DNA of 64,000 nucleotides from Ruminococcus sp. Its GTDB lineage: Bacteria; Bacillota; Clostridia; Oscillospirales; Ruminococcaceae. Numbering within the stretch: the stretch's first letter is position 1; each line of letters begins with the position of its first letter. Positions 6,993 to 9,743 of the stretch are shown piece after piece. The DNA lies in assembly GCA_029062165.1 (NCBI GenBank), contig JAIDQQ010000023.1:543889-607888 (forward strand), in the 5' to 3' direction. The notes beneath the pieces are model-generated. The model did not search any database. It had not been told where the DNA came from and worked only from the letters and a program-made list of their open reading frames with translations. A program made the position numbers and the translations under genes.

Positions 6993-7021
6993 TTGACATT
7001 TCATAACGATTGTGTTAATAT
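6993..7021 (+). promoter_or_regulatory. Sigma-A promoter for pflB
   Basis: TTGACA-17 nt-TAATAT. Confidence 0.8.
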
Positions 7022-7096: not shown

Positions 7097-9151
7097 ATGG
7101 AATTTGCTAAAGAATGGGACGGCTTTAAAGCCGGTAAATGGAGTTCTGATATCAATGTCAGCGACTTCATAAAGAAAAACTATACACCTTACGACGGCGA
7201 CGAGAGTTTCCTTGCCGGTCCTACAGAAGCTACTACTAAGCTCTGGGAACAGGTCATGGACCTCACCAAACAGGAACGTGAAGCCGGTGGTGTTCTCGAT
7301 ATGGATACAAAAATCGTTTCCACTATCACCTCACACAATGCAGGCTATCTCAATAAAGACCTCGAAAAAATCGTCGGCGTACAGACAGATAAGCCTTTCA
7401 AACGTTCGCTCCAGCCTTTCGGCGGTATAAGAATGGCTATCAATGCTTGTGAACAGAATGGTTACAAGGTTGATGACGAAGTTGTAAAGATTTTCACTGA
7501 ATACCGCAAAACTCACAATCAGGGTGTTTTCGACGCTTATACACCTGAAATGCGTATGGCTCGTAAATCCGCTATTATCACAGGTCTTCCGGACGCTTAC
7601 GGCAGAGGACGTATCATAGGCGACTACAGAAGAGTTGCCCTCTACGGTATTGACAGACTTGTTGCAGATAAAAAACATCAGATTGAAACTTCTCTCGTGA
7701 GAATGACTTCTAAAAATATCCGTCTCCGTGAAGAACTCGCTGAACAGGTACGTGCATTAGGCGAACTCAAAAAACTCGGCGAAATCTACGGTTTTGACAT
7801 CTCACAGCCTGCTAAGAACGCTAAGGAAGCTGTACAGTGGTTATACTTCGGCTATCTCGCAGCAGTCAAGGAACAGAACGGTGCAGCTATGTCTCTCGGA
7901 CGTACTTCAACATTCCTTGATATCTACATTCAGCGTGACCTTGATAACGGCGTTCTCACTGAAGAAGAGGCACAGGAAATCATTGACCACTTCATTATGA
8001 AACTCCGTATTGTCAAGTTCGCAAGAACTCCGGAATATAACGCACTCTTCTCCGGTGACCCGACTTGGGTTACTGAATCTATCGGCGGTGTTGATATAGA
8101 CGGTCACCACCTTGTAACTAAGAACAGTTTCCGTTATCTCCATACACTCGAAAATCTCGGCACTGCTCCCGAACCGAACATGACTGTACTTTGGTCACAG
8201 AAACTTCCTCGCAAATTCAAGGAATACTGTGCTAAAATTTCTATCATGACTTCTTCTATCCAGTACGAAAACGACGATATGATGAGAGTTATCCACGGCG
8301 ACGACTATGCTATAGCTTGTTGCGTATCTTCAATGGTAGTCGGCAAGGAAATGCAGTTCTTCGGCGCACGTGCAAACCTCGCTAAATGTCTCCTCTACGC
8401 TATAAACGGCGGTGTCGACGAAAGAATGAAAGTTCAGGTAGGTCCTAAGTACAGACCAGTTGAGGGCGATTATCTCGACTTCGACGACGTTTGGGCTAAG
8501 TACCTCGATATGATGGAATGGCTTGCAGGTCTTTATGTCAATACTCTTAACATTATCCACTATATGCACGATAAGTACAGCTATGAAAGAATCCAGATGG
8601 CTCTTCATGACAGAGACGTTAAGCGTTATTTCGCTACCGGTATTGCAGGTCTTTCAGTCGTTGCAGACTCTCTTTCAGCTATAAAGTATGCAAAAGTTAA
8701 GTGCATTCGTGACGAAGACGGCGTTGTTACTGACTACGAAGTTGAAGGAGATTTCCCGAAATATGGTAACAATGATGACCGTGTTGACGATATCGCAGTT
8801 AAAGTTGTTCGTACATTCATGGATATGATTAGAAAACATCATACCTATCGTGACGGCGTGCCGACAATGTCAATTCTTACTATTACTTCAAACGTTGTTT
8901 ACGGTAAGAAAACCGGTAACACTCCCGACGGCAGAAAAGCTGGTATTCCGCTTGCTCCTGGTGCAAATCCAATGCATGGCAGAGATACACACGGTGCAGC
9001 AGCTTCACTTTCTTCTGTTGCTAAACTTCCGTTCAAACACGCACAGGACGGCATTTCAAATACATTCTCAATTATTCCTAACGCACTCGGTAAGGATATG
9101 GAAGTATTTGTCGGCGATATCGACATTGACAAACTTAGTCAGGGTGAATAA
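7097..9151 (+). CDS. pflB: Formate C-acetyltransferase catalytic chain lacking the glycyl radical domain
   Basis: [26 protein letters not shown] (catalytic Cys-Cys), terminates at ...[23 protein letters not shown], before the RVSGYA loop. Confidence 0.93.
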
Positions 9152-9154
9152 TCC

Positions 9155-9382
9155 ATGATTACCCCTAATATGCTCGGCAAAAACGGTACTCCCGAAGAAC
9201 TCGCCGATTTTATCGACAAGTTAATGGCGGAAGGTAGCGGTCATGTAAATATCGAATCCAGTGACGACGGTGAAGGGCTGAAAGTCGATACCGTCAACAG
9301 TACCGACTGCGGTACAGGTAAAGGTGCTTGTATGCAACCTACTGAACTCGATATTGACCCCGACGAAGAAGAAGACGACTGA
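9155..9382 (+). CDS. Small acidic protein between PFL chain and glycyl radical domain
   Basis: 75-aa ORF starting 3 nt after the pflB stop, CGTGKGAC motif and DPDEEEDD tail. Confidence 0.65.
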   Translation: MITPNMLGKNGTPEELADFIDKLMAEGSGHVNIESSDDGEGLKVDTVNSTDCGTGKGACMQPTELDIDPDEEEDD

Positions 9383-9462
9383 TTTAATTTATGCTATCGG
9401 CGTGGACGGCTTTCGGGTTGTTCACGTCTATATAAAAAATCTTTAAAGGAGGATTTTTAACA

Positions 9463-9705
9463 ATGGAAAGTAATGCTACACAGGTTAATAACCTTATTGA
9501 ACTTCTTGACGGTTATGTTGAAAAAGGTGGTCATCACCTCAATGTAAACGTGTTCACAAGAGAAACACTTCTCGACGCTCAGGCACATCCTGAAAAGTAT
9601 CCTCAACTTACCGTAAGAGTTTCCGGTTATGCCGTAAACTTCGTTAAGCTCACAAAGGAACAGCAGGACGACGTTATTTCAAGAACATTCCACGCTGCAC
9701 TCTAA
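9463..9705 (+). CDS. Free-standing glycyl radical domain of PFL (GrcA/YfiD-like)
   Basis: [20 protein letters not shown]...[25 protein letters not shown]; strong RBS AAAGGAGG. Confidence 0.93.
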
Positions 9706-9713
9706 TCAAAACA

Positions 9714-9743
9714 GAAAGTCCGGAGAAATCCGGACTTTTTTTA
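9714..9743. terminator. Bidirectional terminator
   Basis: aaagtccgg-agaaat-ccggactttttt. Confidence 0.85.

Follow-up and report, generated by a model that had tools for sequence, protein, structure and literature searches.

A conserved gene between the two parts of a split pyruvate formate-lyase in Ruminococcus is a candidate accessory subunit with a paired-cysteine motif

A small gene that lies between the two parts of a split pyruvate formate-lyase (PFL) in Ruminococcus is real and conserved, and the best explanation we have for it, one that we hold tentatively, is that it encodes an unrecognized accessory subunit of the enzyme. Textbook PFL, a fermentation enzyme, is a homodimer of one polypeptide. 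The window analyzed here, a 64,000-nucleotide stretch of Ruminococcus DNA, carries a pfl operon with the gene order pflB', mid, and grcA3 (Table 1), in which mid, the small gene, is an open reading frame (ORF) of 75 amino acids.

Table 1. Features of the pfl operon and its flanks, in positions of the window
Feature	Coordinates	Strand	Remarks
Promoter-like site before the operon	6993..7021	+	TTGACA-17-TAATAT, with TG preceding the second hexamer; consensus match only, count no higher than in shuffles
Truncated pflB (pflB'), 684 aa, catalytic chain	7097..9151	+	ends at E. coli residue ~680, then a short tail
mid, 75-aa candidate accessory protein	9155..9382	+	ATG start
mid segment copying the lead-in helix and beta10 strand of the radical domain (residues 13-33, PEELADFIDKLMAEGSGHVNI)	9191..9253	+	
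mid residues 52-63, CGTGKGACMQPT: conserved C-x(4-6)-[A]C-x-x-P-T motif	9308..9343	+	
mid acidic C-terminal tail, ELDIDPDEEEDD	9344..9379	+	
Hairpin in the mid-grcA3 spacer	9399..9428	+	covaries in close relatives; without U-tract
grcA3, 80 aa, glycyl-radical subunit (RVSGYA)	9463..9705	+	NF038360, 164 bits against a cut-off of 158
Terminator-like hairpin 3' of grcA3	9713..9740	+	consensus scan

The locus is a split PFL, with a Pfl chain that lacks the radical domain adjoining a GrcA3 that scores above the family cut-off. Pfl' matches TIGR01255 only up to position 667 of 744, and its residues 3 to 670 align with residues 7 to 680 of E. coli PFL; the active-site pair C408/C409 corresponds to C418/C419 of the E. 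coli enzyme. GrcA3 residues 7 to 77 align with E. coli PFL 681 to 756, which puts the split at about 680/681. pflB' is the sole PFL-like gene in the genome of the window, and the PFL activase (PFL-AE) is encoded on a different contig. Related loci come from genomes labeled Ruminococcus sp. or R. flavefaciens. One contig labeled as an Alistipes senegalensis metagenome-assembled genome also carries a Ruminococcus pfl locus, almost identical, and probably reflects mis-binning or a mislabeled genome.

A consensus scan found no terminator between pflB', mid, and grcA3. The spacer hairpin between mid and grcA3 has a folding z-score of -3.8 and sits just 5' of the grcA3 ribosome site. Across six close relatives, pairing is kept in 97% of stem cells, and both sides have changed in 7 of the 12 pairs. 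This hairpin may have a role in subunit ratio via mRNA processing or stability.

Two solved chains in the PDB named "Formate acetyltransferase," 38la_A and 38lb_A, look split, judging from where the matches end; 38lb extends about 40 residues beyond ...GECDMCEM. With GrcA3 named in NCBIfam and these two split-type Pfl chains in the PDB, the PFL split itself is already known. The literature searched contained no paper about split PFL or GrcA3.

A sequence-only reading of the window had placed the ORF 3 nt after the pflB stop, between two PFL pieces, and had noted its acidic end and the absence of RVSGYA. The coordinates agree, with the 684-aa Pfl chain on one side and the 80-aa GrcA3 on the other, and both sequence features are seen. 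mid shares the reading frame of pflB, whose TAA it follows by 3 nt. In most species the start of mid and the stop of pflB' overlap or adjoin (-8, -4, -1, +1, or +3 nt), suggesting that mid is translationally coupled to pflB, which we count as evidence for an accessory subunit. Among 36 genomes of the same genus, 34 have mid beside grcA3; the other two have neither gene. Judging from pairwise dN/dS values of 0.02 to 0.23, mid is under purifying selection.

Profile comparisons indicate that the N-terminal half of mid is homologous to the lead-in helix and beta10 strand of the radical domain. hhalign aligns 32 mids with 20 GrcA3s over 29 columns without gaps (30.1 bits; E value, 2e-5), and the maximum score in 400 column shuffles of this comparison was 18.9 bits. 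Residues D21, H30, and N32 of mid match D16, H25, and N27 of GrcA3, and N32 corresponds to N706 of E. coli PFL. Further, a mid profile built without any PFL sequence, run in six frames against 378 whole Clostridia genomes, returned 10 true mids (E value below 1e-19), every one beside grcA3, and in these genomes conservation of mid extends over several families. About 84 of the 87 weaker matches fell on GrcA3 or unsplit PFLs, in their lead-in, at profile positions 4 to 37, as judged by reading the table (frame lengths, and coordinates agreeing with those of a separate survey wherever an entry occurs in both) rather than by a scripted count. Mids of other families resemble their own GrcA3 neighbors more than the window mid does, with identities of 10/24 in L079 and L088 versus 5/24 in the window. 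Two weak matches to mid lie in other families, G036:C4:28698-28757 (E value, 0.03) and G044:C11:17226-17363 (E value, 0.02), one of them a 78-aa frame matching in the Cys region only. In a wider phylum sample, mid was found only in the window genome and in one Clostridia genome already represented here.

By its sequence, mid is not a GrcA, as it has no radical loop and scores below the family cut-off. The RVSGYA glycyl-radical loop is absent from all 32 mid homologs. NF038360 is weakly matched by 5 of the 32 (best homolog, E value of 2.5e-4), and the window mid matches neither it nor PF01228 and falls below the curated family cut-off. Searched against Pfam and NCBIfam, the window mid matches no known family. 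Matches of the mid profile in the PDB (BMP-2, troponin) were set aside as chance, leaving no credible PDB relative, and a phage origin for mid was considered with no match found.

The sequence-only reading had lined the ORF up by eye with a PFL segment and suggested that it may be a degenerate duplicate of the radical-domain lead-in. The profile match bears out that alignment for the helix and the GxGHxN part. "LGK" does not hold as part of the shared segment, since an ALGK is still present in the Pfl chain itself, and most homologs of the ORF lack LGK. Homology to the lead-in is upheld by both hhalign and the genome search, but the low dN/dS values do not fit a degenerate sequence, and the Cys-Pro-Thr motif is a conserved gain rather than decay. 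That reading was to stand or fall with profile similarity to the radical domain in an HMM-HMM comparison and with conservation of the ORF next to split PFLs, and both were found. It had also proposed that the ORF might guard the docking surface on the catalytic chain or act as a redox-sensitive regulator; either may be so, and the comparative data agree with a dithiol element in the service of the split enzyme.

All 32 mids contain two cysteines in the motif C-x(4-6)-[A]C-x-x-P-[T/N] (C52 and C59 in the window mid), and the usual number of cysteines in a mid is two or three. In all but 3 of the 32, the invariant Cys lies 24 to 28 residues after the beta10 Asn (27 in the window mid, from N32 to C59), and the radical Gly lies 28 residues after the same Asn. 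By chain length, the Cys motif would take the place of the glycyl-radical loop at its entry to the barrel. A profile of the tail, run across 23 genomes, found the motif only on mid or on the Pfl tail, once per genome and not in genomes with neither element, with other occurrences at chance level. The same profile had no match to NrdA.

The motif is found either on mid or on the catalytic chain. Our class sample holds 22 split-PFL genomes besides that of the window. Nine have mid, which in G205 sits after grcA3; seven have the Cys motif fused to the Pfl C terminus (six like DCSNGACSTPTLFEGLD, with G411 atypical); two have a short, diverged Cys-Cys tail on Pfl; and four have neither mid nor tail. 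Two more families, those of G046 and G055, are of the tail type. No surveyed genome has both mid and a Pfl Cys tail. Three split Pfl chains (L077, L080, and L078) end in the atypical short Cys tails DEGCCEGTVE, DQGCCEDNID, and DSCGGDCGITPVEAL, respectively, which are perhaps reduced versions of the Cys element. The four genomes with neither form and the two with only a CC tail indicate that split PFLs do not strictly require the element. In the Cys-tail Pfls the motif occurs with no beta10 mimic, so the motif and the docking part can be separated. Neither mid nor the Pfl Cys tail had a family, a structure, or a paper in the sources searched.

In a tree of the catalytic chains, the split PFLs form one supported group, with mid on several branches; eight of the tail forms cluster and one stands apart. 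Two unsplit PFLs, L094 and L095 (from G383 and G379), nest within the split group, and both lack mid and tail. From their placement in this one tree, several of whose inner branches are weak, they seem to be re-fusions of Pfl and GrcA3 with loss of the Cys element.

AlphaFold models were too poor for docking, both for a read-through Pfl-mid chain with the TAA read as Gln (mean pLDDT, 48.5) and for a tail-fused Pfl (mean pLDDT, 64.9); both had shallow alignments. A Foldseek search with the tail-fused model found again only PFL and other glycyl radical enzymes.

Our preferred but still tentative explanation is that mid serves the split PFL as a placeholder in the beta10 slot and as a dithiol guard, also easing the loading of GrcA3. 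The E. coli enzyme offers a precedent. YfiD repeats the beta10 strand of PFL, and O2-cleaved PFL retains its own copy within residues 696 to 733 (Andorfer et al. 2021, PMC8683613). This residual stub is a recognition element needed for YfiD binding and activation; tPFL, a form without residues 696 to 759, shows no detectable YfiD binding and has a radical content 32-fold below that of the stub-keeping cPFL, and catalysis is little affected by stub removal (PMC8683613). As judged from the alignments, the split chain amounts to a natural tPFL, for which mid would supply the beta10 copy as a separate protein. The beta10-like strand of mid would occupy the slot used by GrcA3, docking on beta9 at the open barrel mouth of the truncated catalytic chain. 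Such docking would place the mid Cys pair near C408/C409, where the radical loop would sit. There, mid would keep the emptied active site closed and reduced while GrcA3 is absent or O2-damaged, and it would help a fresh GrcA3 to load and become activated, comparable to the stub of O2-cleaved E. coli PFL. For cysteines supplied in trans, the precedent is split class II ribonucleotide reductase (RNR), to which the separate subunit NrdJb contributes a Cys pair at its C terminus (PMC4520616). Taken together, the two precedents and the position of the arm lead us to favor, by analogy, the placeholder and dithiol guard. The PFL of some Clostridia might then consist of three parts, namely, a catalytic chain, an exchangeable GrcA3, and a dithiol placeholder keeping the active-site cysteines reduced, with the arm in trans (mid) or in cis (Pfl tail).

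Several other roles for mid can be weighed against these data. It could act as a loading or activation factor only, a stand-alone stub that recruits GrcA3 and licenses activation by PFL-AE while its cysteines only stabilize mid itself. The behavior of tPFL relative to cPFL fits such a role, as do the likeness of the split chain to tPFL and the copying by mid of the beta10 part of the stub. However, the Cys-tail Pfls retain the cysteines and not the beta10 copy, suggesting that the Cys motif, not the stub, is conserved across the split clade, and we regard a pure loading factor as unlikely. We give somewhat less credence to an oxygen or redox switch or inhibitor, in which oxidized (or metal-bound) mid would block the GrcA3 docking site and shut the enzyme down without radical damage. 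The two universal cysteines and the mimicry of a docking surface would suit a switch, but tail-fused forms could not compete via beta10 mimicry, and a 4Fe-4S or Zn site could be filled only if shared between two chains, as each chain offers two cysteines. Equally doubtful is a structural or solubility subunit that caps the exposed beta9 edge of the truncated chain. mid directly follows that chain, with coupled start codons, and BSSgamma, which is needed for soluble BSSalpha (PMC12590467), provides a precedent; yet split chains without any cap exist, two such chains have been solved in the PDB, and the invariant cysteines would go unexplained. Finally, a functionless relic of the gene split, which the homology to the radical-domain lead-in might suggest, is already disfavored and highly improbable given the low dN/dS, the retention of mid with an invariant motif in several families, and the recovery of that motif on the Pfl chain in tail lineages.

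The candidate accessory subunit shares features with several known proteins. Like GrcA, YfiD, and GrcA3, mid has a lead-in helix and a beta10 (HxN[VI]) segment and is a small protein encoded beside PFL, which it would likewise serve; unlike them, it lacks the RVSGYA loop and the C-terminal helix and has a Cys-x(4-6)-Cys-x-x-Pro-Thr arm and an acidic tail. As with the 696-733 stub of E. coli PFL, mid would add a second beta10 copy to the complex that holds the spare radical domain, but it is a separate gene in which cysteines replace the N-terminal half of the radical loop. Similarly, BSSbeta, BSSgamma, and HPAD gamma are proteins of 7 to 10 kDa, and mid matches their type as a small subunit gene encoded with the catalytic chain of a glycyl radical enzyme. 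BSSbeta contacts the radical domain (PMC12590467), and an influence on the radical domain is possible for mid as well. Each of those subunits binds a 4Fe-4S cluster, within a HiPIP-like fold in BSSbeta and BSSgamma, whereas mid resembles the radical domain. NrdJb and the NrdA arm (CESGACKI) also carry a Cys pair near a flexible C terminus, in NrdJb on a separate small subunit, and we propose an analogy with mid in mechanism; the likeness in spacing to the NrdA tail is at the motif level only, and no homology of mid to NrdJb or NrdA was detected.

According to a 2025 paper on benzylsuccinate synthase, other glycyl radical enzymes may have accessory subunits that are yet to be identified (PMC12590467). 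The mid family would be such an accessory subunit for PFL, in Ruminococcus and other gut and rumen Clostridia. The split system separates catalysis, the radical carrier, and the stub or guard, all of which are fused in E. coli, so that a natural system is at hand in which to test the need for a second beta10 copy in loading a spare radical domain. More broadly, the mid system suggests that an O2-labile radical enzyme may be serviced by the swapping of parts.
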